Origin: an uncultured Methylophilaceae bacterium
GTDB lineage: Bacteria; Pseudomonadota; Gammaproteobacteria; Burkholderiales; Methylophilaceae
Assembly (NCBI GenBank): GCA_903899965.1
Contig: CAIULB010000030.1
Location: 153,489-217,488 of the forward strand
Direction: 5' to 3'
DNA length: 64,000 bases
The notes beneath the pieces are model-generated. The model made no database searches. It worked only from the letters and a program-made list of their open reading frames with translations, and was not told where the DNA came from. A program made the position numbers and the translations under genes. Of this stretch, positions 4,195-58,053 are shown one piece after another (position 1 is the stretch's first letter; the number at the start of each line of letters is the position of its first letter).

Positions 4195-4195
<1 letters not shown>

Positions 4196-4743
4196 TGAAA
4201 CCTGTTGAAAAGCAGCGTATGGCTTGGGCTTTAACGGGTTCAGGCCATTATTTACGTGAATGTATCGCTATTTTTAATAAGCTAGAAGATGTCGATTTGT
4301 TTCTAAGTAAAGCAGCCGCTGAAATTCTCCAGCAATACGGCTATAAGCATAATGCAGGTAAAGTCTACCAAGATAAAACCGCAAGTTCAGTGCCTGTTGA
4401 GCTGTTTTATCATGGGGCTTACCACACAGTAATTATTGCGCCGACAACTTCAAACACTGTTGCTAAAATGGTTTGCGGAATTTCCGATAACCTAGTGACA
4501 AATATCTTTGCACAAGCAGGTAAATGCCGAGTTCCAAGCATTGTGTTTGCTTGTGATACAGAAGCTGAGCTTGAGTCTGAAGCACCTCGTGAGAATATGG
4601 TGAAGGTTTATCCGCGCCGTATTGATTTAGAAAACACAGCAAAACTCAAAATATTCGAAGAAACAACAGTGGTCGAAAATATGCAGCAACTCGACACTGC
4701 CATTCAGGCAAGATTAGCATGTCTGAAAGCATCCTCTTTTTAA
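4195..4743 (+). CDS. Flavoprotein (AfpA / DmrB-like, methanopterin-associated)
   Basis: FMN-binding flavoprotein-type sequence (WALTGSGHYLRE..., IIAPTTSNTVAKMV); start overlaps purA stop (TAATG); sits in methanopterin/methylofuran-type cluster. Confidence 0.75.
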
Positions 4744-6113
4744 CAGGAAAGTTGGCCGAAAAGAGCTTGCATCAAGTATTAGCAAGCATGCAGCCAGCAC
4801 CTTTCAAATATCGGATTACCCAAATTGGCGTATCCGTTGCCGCACTGATGACCCCTGAACTTATTGCTAGACGTGTACCTGAGGTTGGCGACGCGAGCAG
4901 GGTCATTGTGCCTGGATTGTGTTGTGGCGACTTAACGATGCTTGAAGATAAATACGGCGTGCCTGTAGCACGAGGCCCTGTGGACTTGAAAGATTTGCCG
5001 CAATACTTTGGTCGCGGCGGCAAAGCACCTGACTTATCCAAATATGATGTGAATATCTTTGCAGAAATCGTCGATGCTCCGCAATTAAGCGTTGAAGAAA
5101 TATTGGTGCGCGCGCAACACTTTCAATCGCAAGGTGCCAATGTCATTGATCTAGGTTGTTTGCCGAACACGCCGTTTCCACATTTAGCTGATGCAATTAA
5201 AACGCTCAAAGCGGCTGGCTTTAAGGTGAGTGTTGATTCTTTAAGCGCGGACGATCTATTGCTTGCAGGCAAATCAGGCGCGGATTACCTACTAAGCCTG
5301 ACTGAACATACTTTGTGGATTGCGGAGCAAGTAAATGCTGTCCCAGTGTTAATTCCAGAAAAATCAGGCAGCTTGCCGTCCTTATATCGCGCCATTGAAG
5401 GTATGCGTAAACTCGGCAAGCCATTCATTGCTGATGCCATTCTTGACCCCATTCCCTTTGGCTTCACAGAATCGATCGTTCGTTACCACAAGCTTCGTAA
5501 ACGCTACCCCGACATTCAAATCATGATGGGCGTGGGTAACATCACTGAGCTTACCGATGCCGATACCACGGGCATTAATGCCATATTGTTTGGCATCATT
5601 AGTGAGCTCAACATCAATGCAGTATTAGCGACATCTGTGAGTCCTCATGCAATTAATGCGGTTGCAGAGGCTGACGTCGCGAGACGTATGATGTTTGCTG
5701 CGCGTGAAGAAAATCGATTGCCTCGAGATTACACCGCAGGCTTATTGGGTATGCATGACCGTAGACCTTTTACATATACGCTAGATGAAATCGCAGAATT
5801 CGCAGCGCAAATTAAAGACCCTAGTTTTAGGATTCAAGTAAGCAAAGAGGGCATGCACATCTACAACCGTGATGGGTTATTTAGCGACATTGATCCATTC
5901 AAGCTGTATCCAAACTTGAAGGTTGAAGATGACGCTTCACATGCCTTCTATTTAGGGGTTGAGCTTGCAAGGGCGCAAATCGCATGGCAACTCAAGAAGC
6001 GCTATACCCAAGATGAAGAACTCGCATGGGGCGTTAATACCTATGAAAGCAGCCAAGAAGGAAAGACCGCTCATCGTGAAGCTTCGATGAAAGAGAAGAA
6101 GCAAAAGCCATGA
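4719..6113 (+). CDS. Dihydropteroate synthase-like protein (DUF6513 + pterin-binding domain)
   Basis: 'QGANVIDLGCLPNTPFPHLADAIKTLKAAGFKVSVDSL' pterin-binding TIM-barrel-like motif; overlaps upstream ORF by 25 nt. Confidence 0.75.
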   Translation: MSESILFLTGKLAEKSLHQVLASMQPAPFKYRITQIGVSVAALMTPELIARRVPEVGDASRVIVPGLCCGDLTMLEDKYGVPVARGPVDLKDLPQYFGRGGKAPDLSKYDVNIFAEIVDAPQLSVEEILVRAQHFQSQGANVIDLGCLPNTPFPHLADAIKTLKAAGFKVSVDSLSADDLLLAGKSGADYLLSLTEHTLWIAEQVNAVPVLIPEKSGSLPSLYRAIEGMRKLGKPFIADAILDPIPFGFTESIVRYHKLRKRYPDIQIMMGVGNITELTDADTTGINAILFGIISELNINAVLATSVSPHAINAVAEADVARRMMFAAREENRLPRDYTAGLLGMHDRRPFTYTLDEIAEFAAQIKDPSFRIQVSKEGMHIYNRDGLFSDIDPFKLYPNLKVEDDASHAFYLGVELARAQIAWQLKKRYTQDEELAWGVNTYESSQEGKTAHREASMKEKKQKP

Positions 6114-6706
6114 GCCCCGTTAATAAAACTCTAGAAAAAATCAACGAAATCATTCTCATCTCGGAGTGTGAAGATGGATCACCACATATTGCGCCATTTG
6201 GTACTCGTGAGCGTGACGGCTTGATTTTAATCGCACCATTCAGGCCATCTACTAGCTTAGATAATTTATTGAGTGGACGACGCGCAAGCATTAATACAAC
6301 CGATGATGTAAGGGTTTTTGCAGGGGCTTTAACTGGAAGACGCAGTTGGCTTGTGGAGAATAGAGCCGGTGCTTTAGTACTTCAATCTACGCTTACTTAC
6401 CAATCGCTGAAACTAGAAAAAGTTGAAGATGATATTCAGCGCCCTAAGCTTTACTTTAGTGTGCTTAAAGAAGAAATGCTCAAGCCCTTTCAAGGTTACA
6501 ACCGGGCACAAGCTGCAGTGGTTGAGTTGTGTGTACTTGTAAGCCGTTTGAATATGTTACCCATAGAAAAAATCACCTCCGAAATGGAGTATCTTCGTAT
6601 CGCCATAGAAAAAACAGCCGGGCATATAGAGCTAGAAGCGTGGGGTTGGCTGGTTGAGGCAATAGAAAACCATCAGGCTCAAGTGTTAGGAGATAATCTT
6701 GCTTAA
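6110..6706 (+). CDS. DUF447 family protein (flavin-binding split-barrel-like)
   Basis: N-terminus 'INEIILISECEDGSPHIAPFGTRERDGLILIAPFRPSTS LDNL' resembles DUF447; ATGA overlap with upstream ORF. Confidence 0.72.
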   Translation: MSPVNKTLEKINEIILISECEDGSPHIAPFGTRERDGLILIAPFRPSTSLDNLLSGRRASINTTDDVRVFAGALTGRRSWLVENRAGALVLQSTLTYQSLKLEKVEDDIQRPKLYFSVLKEEMLKPFQGYNRAQAAVVELCVLVSRLNMLPIEKITSEMEYLRIAIEKTAGHIELEAWGWLVEAIENHQAQVLGDNLA

Positions 6707-7388
6707 GGCTCAACCGCATATCAAGATGTTAGCGAGTGTTACAAGCGTCGATGAGGCGTTAATTGCACTTGATGCTGGTGTTGATATGATAGACCTCAAA
6801 AATCCAAGCACAGGTGCATTGGGGGCGCTTGACCCTGCTTTGGTAAAAGACATTGTGGATGCGGTTAATCACCGCACCACAGTTAGTGCAACGATAGGTG
6901 ACTTGCCTATGCAGCCTAGCCTGATTGTTGATGCAACAAAAATAATGGTAGAAACAGGCGTTGATATCTTAAAAATTGGGTTCTTCGGGCAGTTGAATCA
7001 TGCTATATGTCTAGACGCTTTAAAATTTCAAGCAAGCCAAACTAAACTGATTGCAGTGTTACTTGCTGATGAACAACCGGACTTTGGTTTGTTGAAAAAT
7101 ATCGCTGAAGCCGGCTTTTATGGTGTGATGCTAGATACTGCGAACAAAAGTAAGGGGCATTTATTAAGCCATTTACCGCTTAGTCGACTAATGGAGTTTG
7201 TCAGTAGTGCCTCATTACTTGGGCTCCAAACTGGCTTGGCTGGCTCTGTTAATGTTGGCCATATTAAAGATCTCTGCGATGTAAAGCCTTCCTACTTGGG
7301 TTTTCGCGGAGCTTTGTGTGAGAAAAATCAACGAGCTTTAGGCTTGGATGCCACTAAAGTTCGGAGTATTAAAAAAATGCTTCATTAA
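6699..7388 (+). CDS. (5-formylfuran-3-yl)methyl phosphate synthase-like (MfnB family, DUF556)
   Basis: 'MLASVTSVDEALIALDAGVDMIDLKNPSTGALGAL' characteristic of MfnB; overlaps upstream ORF by 8 nt. Confidence 0.82.
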   Translation: MLKAQPHIKMLASVTSVDEALIALDAGVDMIDLKNPSTGALGALDPALVKDIVDAVNHRTTVSATIGDLPMQPSLIVDATKIMVETGVDILKIGFFGQLNHAICLDALKFQASQTKLIAVLLADEQPDFGLLKNIAEAGFYGVMLDTANKSKGHLLSHLPLSRLMEFVSSASLLGLQTGLAGSVNVGHIKDLCDVKPSYLGFRGALCEKNQRALGLDATKVRSIKKMLH

Positions 7389-44998: not shown

Positions 44999-45619
44999 TC
45001 ACCCCATCCGAGTTGATAGGATCCGCCCTCTAAACTTGTACGCAATACGAAGCGCTATAAGCGAAAAAAACACAGCACCGTATAGCAGAGGCTCGGTCAT
45101 ATCTTTTTTTACCAGCCAGAGAAAATGTAAAACCGCCAACAGTCCTATCAGATAAACCAATTGGTGTAATCGTTTCCAACGGCCACCTAAACGCTTCATC
45201 ATGGCTTGCGTCGATGTCATCGCCAATGGCACGGTCATCATAAACGCCGTAAAACCGACCAACAAATAAGGATGCTTGATAATGTCCTTACCTATTTCCT
45301 CAAAATCGAACCAGTGATCTAAAACAAGATACGTCACAATATGCAAGCACGTATAAAAAAACATGGTAAGGCCAAGCATGCGCCTAAGCTGAGCGAATGC
45401 GTTAATGCCTGAGTGTTGCCGGATTGGTGTCATCGCAAGGGTTATCAACAATAAGATCAAAGCCCACAAACCTGTGGAACGCTCTATAAATTCAATAGGA
45501 TTCGCGCCTAAGTTATTATTTATGCCTAGATAAATTAAACGAAACGAAGGCATAAGGCTAATAAATAAAATCAGTTTTTTATTATTTATAATCAATGAAT
45601 TAATTGTAATTTTAAGCAT
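44999..45619 (-). CDS. msrQ: Methionine sulfoxide reductase heme-binding subunit MsrQ
   Basis: Multi-TM, 'STGLWALILLLITLAMTPIRQ'; downstream of msrP. Confidence 0.95.
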   Translation of the reverse strand: MLKITINSLIINNKKLILFISLMPSFRLIYLGINNNLGANPIEFIERSTGLWALILLLITLAMTPIRQHSGINAFAQLRRMLGLTMFFYTCLHIVTYLVLDHWFDFEEIGKDIIKHPYLLVGFTAFMMTVPLAMTSTQAMMKRLGGRWKRLHQLVYLIGLLAVLHFLWLVKKDMTEPLLYGAVFFSLIALRIAYKFRGRILSTRMG

Positions 45620-45625
45620 GGTACT

Positions 45626-46594
45626 TTAGAAGTTTTTATTTAAATCCATGCCCGTGTAAAGCTGCGCCACTTGCTCTGCATAACCATTAAAAATTTGCGT
45701 TTTAATGCGCGGCGTAAATAAGCCACCGCCAATTCTTCGCTCCGAAGACTGCGTCCAACGCGGGTGATCTACAGTAGGATTTACATTGGCATAAAAGCCA
45801 TATTCATTTGGCCCAGCCTTCATCCATGATGTTTTTGGCATAGTTTCAGTAAATCGTATCTTTACAATGGCTTTAGCGCCTTTAAATCCATATTTCCAAG
45901 GCACTACAAGCCGCATCGGCGCCCCATTCTGATTTGGCAACACTTCGCCATATAAGCCTACAGCAATCATTGTCAAGGGATTCATCGCTTCATCCATACG
46001 CAAACCCTCAACATAGGGCCAATCCAAGGCATGAATGCGCTGTCCTGGCATTATTAGGTCATCAGAAAGGGATATAAATTCAACATATTTTGCATTTGCG
46101 GTAGGCTCTGCCCATTGAATAAGTTTGGCTAGAGGAAATCCTATCCACGGAATTACCATAGACCACCCCTCTACACAGCGCATTCTGTAGATACGTTCCT
46201 CCAGAGGTGCTAGCTTAAAAATATCTTCTATACCAATTTGTTTATTCTTTTTAACCGCCCCTTCAATTGAGACAGCCCAAGGCGATGGCTTAAATAGACG
46301 CGACTCGATAGATGGATCAGTTTTACTGGTCCCAAACTCGTAATAATTGTTGTAATTAGTAATATCGTCATATGGGGTTAATTTCTCTTCCGCACCATAT
46401 TTAGATTTTGCGTAAGAATTGATTTTTTGTCTGCCTGATGCAGCATTGGCAGTACTGCTAACAAGCCCTGTGAAAATGCCGCTTGCAGTCAACAATGAAG
46501 CCCCCGCTGCTTTTATCAAGTTTCGGCGGTTTTCGAAATTCTCTTTTGAGGTGATTTCCGAAGGAATGACGTCTGATTTTTTATGTATCAACAT
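45626..46594 (-). CDS. msrP: Protein-methionine-sulfoxide reductase catalytic subunit MsrP
   Basis: Twin-arginine 'NRRNLIKAAG', 'RMRCVEGWSMVIPWIGFPLAKLI' molybdopterin domain. Confidence 0.96.
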   Translation of the reverse strand: MLIHKKSDVIPSEITSKENFENRRNLIKAAGASLLTASGIFTGLVSSTANAASGRQKINSYAKSKYGAEEKLTPYDDITNYNNYYEFGTSKTDPSIESRLFKPSPWAVSIEGAVKKNKQIGIEDIFKLAPLEERIYRMRCVEGWSMVIPWIGFPLAKLIQWAEPTANAKYVEFISLSDDLIMPGQRIHALDWPYVEGLRMDEAMNPLTMIAVGLYGEVLPNQNGAPMRLVVPWKYGFKGAKAIVKIRFTETMPKTSWMKAGPNEYGFYANVNPTVDHPRWTQSSERRIGGGLFTPRIKTQIFNGYAEQVAQLYTGMDLNKNF

Positions 46595-55451: not shown

Positions 55452-56195
55452 CTAAGTTAAAAGTAATTTTGATCCGGCAATCAAAAGCACTAAAGCCAAT
55501 GCCTTTTTAATCGCGCTCGCAGAGTAAAACTTAATCCCTAGCGTCGTACCAATCACCGCGCCAACCATGGTTGCGATAACAAACAATGGCAATTGCGGCG
55601 GAAGATTTTGCACTGAGGTGTAATTGCCAGCCAATCCAAAGATTGAGTTTAACAAGATAAATGTCGCAGCAATGCCAGACGTTTTTCTTGTGCTGCTCCA
55701 ACCTAAAAACAAAATGAGCGGTGAGAGAAATATGCCACCGCCAGTGCCTGTTAAGCCAGCCAAAAAGCCAATAGCTGCGCCAGATGCAACAGCCAATAGG
55801 AATTTAGGTTGATGGACGTTCGAGTCAATACGCTCACTTGTTTTTGTTAATAAGCTAATAGCTGAAACAATCAAAATGACGCCAACAATTGCCTTGTAAA
55901 CATGGTTAGGCGCGTTGATATATCCACCTAAAAAAGCAAAGGGAATGGCGCCAATTGCAATCGGCATTAGCACTTTTAAATCAAAAAAGCCTTTTTTGAT
56001 AAAGCGCCAACTCGTGAAACTAGCGATGCAAATATTGAGCACTAAAGCCGTTGGCTTAATAACTGGGCTTGATAGGCCAAACAAAGTGAGGATGGCGATG
56101 TATACGGATGCACCAGCATGTCCAACTGATGTGTACAAAATGGCACCAAGCATCAAGCAAAGGCTAATCACGAGATCCATGGTTTCGAAGTGCAT
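55452..56195 (-). CDS. Sulfite exporter TauE/SafE family permease
   Basis: Multi-TM with 'GHAGASVYIAILTLFG' and 'GFLAGLTGTGGGIFLSPLILFLGW'; start refined to M at 56195. Confidence 0.88.
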   Translation of the reverse strand: MHFETMDLVISLCLMLGAILYTSVGHAGASVYIAILTLFGLSSPVIKPTALVLNICIASFTSWRFIKKGFFDLKVLMPIAIGAIPFAFLGGYINAPNHVYKAIVGVILIVSAISLLTKTSERIDSNVHQPKFLLAVASGAAIGFLAGLTGTGGGIFLSPLILFLGWSSTRKTSGIAATFILLNSIFGLAGNYTSVQNLPPQLPLFVIATMVGAVIGTTLGIKFYSASAIKKALALVLLIAGSKLLLT

Positions 56196-56229: not shown

Positions 56230-58053
56230 CTAGCGTTTAAGCTTATACACCAACAAGTGGTCGCCTTGCTTATACCCAAAAATCGAACTGCCACCTGCCG
56301 CTACAGCAACGTATTGTTCGCTATCGATTTGGTAGGTGATTGGCGGCGCATTAACACCAAAATCATTACTTCCTTGCCATAGCAGTTTGCCATTGCTTGA
56401 ATCGTAAGCGTTAAAGTGGCCATTGCCCTCTCCTGTAAACAATAAGCCACCAGCTGTTGCTAAAACGCCGCCAACAAGTGGCTGTTCAGTTTTATTTTGC
56501 CAAGTAATTTTGCCTGTTGTTAGGTTAATTGCAGACAACACACCCCAACGTGGCTCGTCCGCTGGCTCTGAAGCCGCATACCGAATAGGTGCTGCACCAT
56601 CTTTGCCTGGCGTTTCATGTAGGGTGTATTTAATTGGCGCATGAATTGCCGCTACAAAGGCATGCTGCGTTGATTCATCAATGGCAGCAGGCGACCAATT
56701 AGAACCGCCTAAAATGCCTGGATAAAGCGTGACACCTTCAAACGTCGCTTTCGAAAATAGATTTTTTTGTGGGACAAAGGCTTCAGACTTCATTAAAAGC
56801 TCGCCTGTTTTGCGGTCATTCACAAAGAACCAACCCAATTTACTTGCTTGACCAACAGCCTCTATCGTTTTGCCATCTTTTTTGTAATTGAACAAAATAG
56901 GCGCACTCGCGATGTCGTAACCCCATACATCATGAGGCACTTGTTGGTAATACCAGCGCAGCTTGCCAGAATCAGCATCTAACGCCACCAAAGAAACAGT
57001 GTAGAGGTTATCTCCAGGACGAGAGACATCGTTCATCTGTGGAGATGGATTGCCTGTGCCGAAGTACAAAAGCCCTAAGTTAGGATCAATCGCTGGCGTG
57101 CTCCAAGCAGAACCACCACCGAAACGAGCTGAATCAGGAAATTTAGGCAAAGCGGCTTTTTCAGCTACAGTATTGCGATTGAGTGAAACGCCATCGGCCG
57201 TTGTTTCTTTAAACGTGCCCTCCCAGCCCTTATCTGGAATGGTATCGAACTGCCAAATACGTTTACCTGTATTCACATCAAACGCCGCCAAAAAGCCTGG
57301 GCGGCCATAACGACCCGTAACACCAATCACAGCACCTAACGGAGCGTCTTCACGTGGGTTGTCGATATGCAACCCATACCCAACACCCGTGATGCCGATA
57401 ATGACTTTACCTTTATAAACCACCGGCGCCATGGCCATTCCAACGCCTGTACCACCTGTTGTTTTGGCGGTTTTGTTTGGGTCATTTTTATTAAGTGAAT
57501 CTTGCCCTTCGGTAACCACATCCGCATCAACTGCGTTGATGTCCCAAAGCTTCTTGCCTGTTTTTGCATCTAACGCAATCAGGCGAGCATCAACTGTGCC
57601 AATAAATACTTTGCCATAACCAACCGCTACGCCCCGATTAGCTGGGCCACAGCACATATTCCAATCAGCACGTCTATCGTGCTTGTAACGCCATAGCTCT
57701 TTACCTGTTTTCCCGTCTAAAGCAACTACATGGTTAAATGGCAGAGAAACATACATCACACCATCAACAACAATCGGCGTTGCTTGGAAAGCTGCTTTAA
57801 CTCCACTTTTATATTGCCAAGCTGTTGTTAAGTTCTGAACATTCTCACGATTAATTTGAGCGTTTTCTGAGAAGCGCTTATTGGCATAATCACGCCCAAA
57901 GCTAGGCCAATCTTGATTTATTCCCTGCTGGTGCGATGAATTAATGATATTGCTTGTGGTGGCATCATGCTTTTGAATGTTGCTACAAGACGCTAGCAGA
58001 CTAGCTCCAAGCACAACTACAAACACCCCAACACTTTTATTTAAATGACGCAT
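56230..58053 (-). CDS. PQQ-dependent dehydrogenase-type quinoprotein, predicted lipoprotein
   Basis: Lipobox 'LLASC', beta-propeller W-motifs, vicinal Cys 'MCCGPANRG', 'GTGNPSPQ'; active-site region reads HDVWGYD. Confidence 0.88.
   Translation of the reverse strand: MRHLNKSVGVFVVVLGASLLASCSNIQKHDATTSNIINSSHQQGINQDWPSFGRDYANKRFSENAQINRENVQNLTTAWQYKSGVKAAFQATPIVVDGVMYVSLPFNHVVALDGKTGKELWRYKHDRRADWNMCCGPANRGVAVGYGKVFIGTVDARLIALDAKTGKKLWDINAVDADVVTEGQDSLNKNDPNKTAKTTGGTGVGMAMAPVVYKGKVIIGITGVGYGLHIDNPREDAPLGAVIGVTGRYGRPGFLAAFDVNTGKRIWQFDTIPDKGWEGTFKETTADGVSLNRNTVAEKAALPKFPDSARFGGGSAWSTPAIDPNLGLLYFGTGNPSPQMNDVSRPGDNLYTVSLVALDADSGKLRWYYQQVPHDVWGYDIASAPILFNYKKDGKTIEAVGQASKLGWFFVNDRKTGELLMKSEAFVPQKNLFSKATFEGVTLYPGILGGSNWSPAAIDESTQHAFVAAIHAPIKYTLHETPGKDGAAPIRYAASEPADEPRWGVLSAINLTTGKITWQNKTEQPLVGGVLATAGGLLFTGEGNGHFNAYDSSNGKLLWQGSNDFGVNAPPITYQIDSEQYVAVAAGGSSIFGYKQGDHLLVYKLKR

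Follow-up and report, generated by a model that had tools for sequence, protein, structure and literature searches.

Enzymes that use pyrroloquinoline quinone (PQQ) are marked by a Ca or lanthanide ion held by Glu, Asn and Asp residues, together with a catalytic Asp, and the locus described here raises the question of what a member of this family does when part of that apparatus is missing. The window (the whole 64,000-nucleotide stretch of an uncultured Methylophilaceae genome that was analysed) contains a minus-strand ORF with an ATG start, coding for a 607-residue protein of the PQQ alcohol-dehydrogenase family that is predicted to be a lipoprotein (Table 1). We propose that this is a non-canonical quinoprotein that binds PQQ without a metal, probably as a periplasmic holder or carrier of the cofactor, a reading to which we assign a probability of roughly 0.4.

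Table 1. Positions in the window of the quinoprotein gene, its diagnostic residues and the neighboring gene.
Feature	Position	Strand	Support
Quinoprotein-family predicted lipoprotein, 607 aa	56230..58053	-	Pfam PF01011, E 1.3e-98
Lipobox L-A-S-C (LLAS-C), Cys24, Ser at +2; lipidation predicted	57982..57993	-	
Vicinal Cys134-Cys135	57649..57654	-	CC in 68/92 orthologues
Clade-specific insert 1, about residues 178-201, near-invariant Glu182	57451..57522	-	
Clade-specific insert 2 (GVGYGLH...), about residues 225-250	57304..57381	-	
Asn335 (GTGNPSP), retained Asn metal-ligand position	57049..57051	-	Invariant, 92/92
W377-G378-Y379-D380; Gly378 at catalytic-Asp position, Asp380 at lanthanide (+2) position	56914..56925	-	
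Lys405, invariant; aligned with Lys/Arg of canonical enzymes	56839..56841	-	
TauE/SafE (TSUP) family transporter gene	55452..56195	-	PF01925, E 4.1e-33

The protein has the propeller fold of the family. It scores 331.7 bits against PF01011 (cut-off 26.7), and its AlphaFold model (pLDDT 86.5, with lower block means of 60-78 in the insert loops) matches PQQ alcohol dehydrogenase structures, the best Foldseek match being 1kb0 (prob 1.00, E 9e-46). In common with the PQQ-dependent alcohol dehydrogenases (PF01011; 1kb0, 6zcv PedH, 1kv9 and 1flg) it has W-containing propeller repeats, the vicinal cysteines, the Asn of GTGNP and Lys405. It falls below the curated cut-offs of the narrower families: 419.1 bits for the methanol/ethanol-family dehydrogenases (TIGR03075, 480.05), 267.7 for membrane-bound glucose dehydrogenase (TIGR03074, 832.65) and 94.5 for BamB (TIGR03300, 285.2). 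The XoxF4 methanol dehydrogenase of Methylophilaceae belongs to the same superfamily and occurs in the same host organisms, but our protein is 29% identical to the XoxF of its genus, and XoxF has the motifs HDEWDYD and GAEFG. Our protein reads G-x-D where XoxF and MxaF have D-x-D or D-x-A, and it belongs to a separate clade in the tree.

There are several departures from the canonical active site. First, Gly378 occupies the catalytic-Asp position, as the original prediction proposed: phmmer and profile alignments place it opposite the catalytic Asp of 1kb0, 6zcv, 1kv9 and 1flg, and all 20 canonical and sister homologues collected from outside the clade have Asp there. The bases first assigned to V-W-G-Y-D (56914-56925) hold the codons for W377 to D380, that for V376 lying just outside, and the Asp at +2 remains as described. 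Second, the metal-ligand Glu is replaced, again as foreseen; its partner is either R248 or the invariant Gly225 of GVGYGLH, neither of them a carboxylate, and the choice is ambiguous because an insert of about 23 residues starts at that place. Third, a further Glu has become Gln90. Fourth, there are two inserts of this length, most visible against the sister family described below, and these contain the near-invariant Glu182 and His229 and the invariant Gly225, Tyr226 and Gly227. The vicinal cysteines, the GTGNPSP motif and the LLAS-C lipobox were also read correctly from the start. Of the features expected of PF01011 enzymes, the Asn metal ligand and the cysteines are present and the catalytic Asp and Glu ligand are absent.

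Outside these positions the family pattern is largely intact. With the 20 canonical and sister proteins as reference, 88 of the 111 columns conserved outside the clade are retained within it; those lost include E to Q90, the Thr at 207, E to R/G/N/Q248, D to G378 and positions 483 and 491. The three pocket carboxylates among them (90, 248 and 378) presumably face PQQ or the metal, by analogy to methanol dehydrogenase, whereas Arg140, Thr153, Trp317, Asn335 and Lys405, which we expect to line the PQQ site, are all kept. The loss of three carboxylates from an otherwise preserved pocket favors loss of the canonical metal-dependent mechanism. We considered whether R248 might be a positive replacement for the metal and rejected this, position 248 being too variable across orthologues (R, G, N, Q, K, L and a few E). 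Candidate stand-ins for the lost acidic positions are Glu182 and Asp380.

The nearest relatives outside the clade, at 42% identity, form a sister family of PQQ alcohol dehydrogenases with the motif HDVWDLD (Paraburkholderia, Ideonella, Alloyangia plasmids). These share the CCGPxNxG motif, but unlike the clade they have the Glu and Asp intact (D-x-D) and no inserts, and a c-type cytochrome gene adjoins in Ideonella and Alloyangia.

That the protein might represent a separate PQQ clade, as also suggested originally, is supported by the phylogenetic tree, in which 55 non-redundant representatives are monophyletic (SH-aLRT 99.3 with the motif residue masked). Gly is at the catalytic position in 53 of the 55, and the two exceptions, L074 (Asp) and L174 (Asn), are nested inside the clade; with the tree judged by eye, the simplest reading would be a single D-to-G change followed by later changes in these two. 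The L174 protein (genome G562) reads HDVWNYD. L074 lies in a metagenome-assembled genome (MAG) with a second clade copy, L073, which has Gly; L074 also has Asp at 248, and the two are a natural comparison pair. Counted by hand at E 1e-150, about 101 of the 119 good Methylophilaceae genomes have the gene, which is retained in complete streamlined genomes of 1.3 Mb and is scattered in other Proteobacteria. When 369 genomes sampled from the class were searched with a DNA pattern, eight had the motif, the source genome included, and a reversed control pattern had no match in the same sample. Two traits are less uniform. In the Methylobacterium branch (L085-L111, with relatives) most members have lost the vicinal cysteines, reading FGPPSNRG rather than CCGPANRG, with WGYD kept. 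The lipid anchor, considered as a clade trait, was rejected since most members outside Methylophilaceae have no detectable lipobox; to judge by these sequences, it is mainly a Methylophilaceae trait.

The distribution of the clade is closely associated with PQQ synthesis. All eight motif-bearing genomes have pqqC, which is found in 52 of the 369 overall (hypergeometric p of 9.5e-8; 6.8e-7 with the source genome excluded). PqqC was found in the source genome and, among 45 genomes searched for it, in 43, this set including two controls without the clade gene (G001 and G005); a search of the MAG carrying L073 and L074 did not find it. The source genome encodes pqqC (9e-99), pqqD (7e-12) and a PqqU-like receptor. 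The genomes examined carry further PQQ-domain proteins, and the co-occurrence is therefore an association with PQQ biology rather than direct evidence of binding; with ordinary PQQ enzymes in the same genomes, it is no proof that the clade protein uses PQQ.

Some gene neighborhoods point the same way. PqqU is known to import PQQ (PMC12124388), and its annotation in E. coli K-12 agrees with this. In L060 a PqqU-family TonB receptor gene (E 7e-188) lies directly upstream of the clade gene with a 4-bp overlap; in L061 and L065 (the latter truncated where its contig ends) the receptor gene abuts or overlaps the clade gene, and in L074 the gap is about 50 bp. L060, L061 and L065 represent one lineage, since L060 and L065 cluster in the tree and the receptors of L060 and L061 share 93% identity; the adjacency is thus limited to two lineages, one betaproteobacterial with tight coupling and the other L074, which may be catalytic because it has the Asp. 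In L065 the order is PqqU-like receptor, clade gene, canonical alcohol dehydrogenase, binding protein and PedF-type cytochrome, and in L070 and L091 the clade gene follows a canonical alcohol dehydrogenase and a MoxJ-like/cytochrome protein. As a general correlate of the clade the receptor fails, being absent from many carriers and present in some non-carriers. Among the neighborhoods examined no cytochrome partner is conserved, and no neighbor family, signaling or other, is conserved across the whole clade. The TauE/SafE gene, about 35 bp downstream on the same strand, is a neighbor in its own genus only; it was dropped as a candidate partner, and is probably not one. A XoxF search of the source genome gave no match, probably because of an assembly gap, since six of ten members of the genus score above the cut-off and the gene is often found at the edge of a contig; this absence was given no weight as evidence.

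In the reading we propose, a quinoprotein scaffold in the periplasm, attached by a lipid anchor in Methylophilaceae, would have given up canonical metal-dependent alcohol oxidation. It may bind PQQ without a Ca or lanthanide ion, because the acids that balance the cation have been neutralized together, and, less surely, would hold or carry PQQ in the periplasm and hand it to XoxF/ExaF-type dehydrogenases. We liken this role to that of PqqT, an unrelated protein that is not a propeller, the likeness extending only to a proposed holding of PQQ in the periplasm. In Methylobacterium extorquens PqqT binds PQQ in the periplasm (Ho & Cotruvo 2019, as given in PMC12124388). A holder or carrier would be the most economical function for a conserved clade that has lost acids and gained inserts but otherwise keeps the family pattern, with retention in streamlined genomes, with strict pqqC co-occurrence in the sample, with PqqU-receptor or PQQ-dehydrogenase neighbors in some lineages and with no conserved cytochrome partner. 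The loss of Cys-Cys in the Methylobacterium branch also favors it, as Chan et al. 2021 (cited in PMC8561711) link this pair to catalysis. Counting against it are the restriction of PqqU adjacency to two lineages, one of which (L074) has Asp again, and the near-invariant Glu182 and His229, which could rebuild an active site. The broader proposal, that these are widespread methylotroph pseudo-dehydrogenases serving as metal-free PQQ reservoirs or delivery proteins, coupled to PqqU import in some bacteria, is a doubtful one.

The main rival to the holder or carrier is an enzyme of altered chemistry: a PQQ dehydrogenase that is active through a rearranged site, where Glu182, His229 or Asp380 would act as the base or bind the metal and a new substrate pocket would be formed by the inserts. 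We consider this possible, if on the unlikely side. The very strict conservation of WGYD, GVGYGLH and Glu182/His229 beside the old metal site would be expected of an enzyme, as would the retention of Asn335 and Asp380, and at some loci the clade gene adjoins PQQ alcohol dehydrogenase genes. However, three pocket carboxylates have been lost jointly, the cysteines are missing from one branch, the cytochrome neighbor is not conserved and position 248 is too variable for a ligand.

A propeller empty of both PQQ and metal, with a structural function or some other ligand to bind, is improbable. There is a precedent in the 'acido-empty-quinoprotein' group A (TIGR04528), which, by its name, we take to have a quinoprotein fold thought to be without the usual cofactor, and for which we take the criterion to be a host without PQQ synthesis. 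The missing metal ligands, a partial match to this family (335.7 bits, cut-off 650) and a predicted lipoprotein anchor in Methylophilaceae, as in BamB, are consistent with such an empty propeller, but the source genome has PQQ biosynthesis genes, and the strong pqqC association, the PqqU-like neighbors and the retained pocket residues all argue against it. A sensor that detects PQQ, lanthanide or alcohol in the periplasm and signals to a partner seems very unlikely: a strictly conserved pocket without its usual catalytic residue, in the cell envelope, would suit one, but the clade lacks a conserved neighbor family. Finally, a decaying pseudogene or sequencing artefact, for which only the lost residues speak, is refuted by conservation, given open frames, 44-96% identity and a conserved motif in 62 aligned relatives, and decay or chance is excluded because 91 of the 92 orthologues collected retain the Gly of HDxWGYD.

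We found no description of the clade in the literature searched, most of it literature available without subscription, and a type number may already exist. Published surveys of pelagic Methylophilaceae report no enzyme of this type besides XoxF4-1 (PMC6028718, PMC6794327), and a second quinoprotein has apparently been passed over. One of these surveys collected homologues at more than 31% identity to XoxF and MxaF (PMC6028718), and the low identity between the present protein and the XoxF of its genus may be why that survey does not include it. In an ocean survey 26.5% of PQQ-dehydrogenase sequences had neither the lanthanide nor the Ca motif (PMC11996626), and such forms may be common and unstudied. 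Genomes receive the annotation 'PQQ-dependent dehydrogenase' on the strength of fold alone, and this clade lacks the hallmark residues. If the protein is a PQQ carrier, it bears on how PQQ is delivered to enzymes and retained against periplasmic leakage; if it is an enzyme, it would represent a new way of using PQQ.

Two other loci in the window are of interest. At 44999-46594, on the minus strand, a molybdopterin oxidoreductase-domain protein (PF00174) is followed by a membrane protein, resembling an MsrPQ pair (the second member by eye). At 4195-7388, on the plus strand, a series of ORFs look by eye like methylotroph proteins of the tetrahydromethanopterin/methanofuran pathway.
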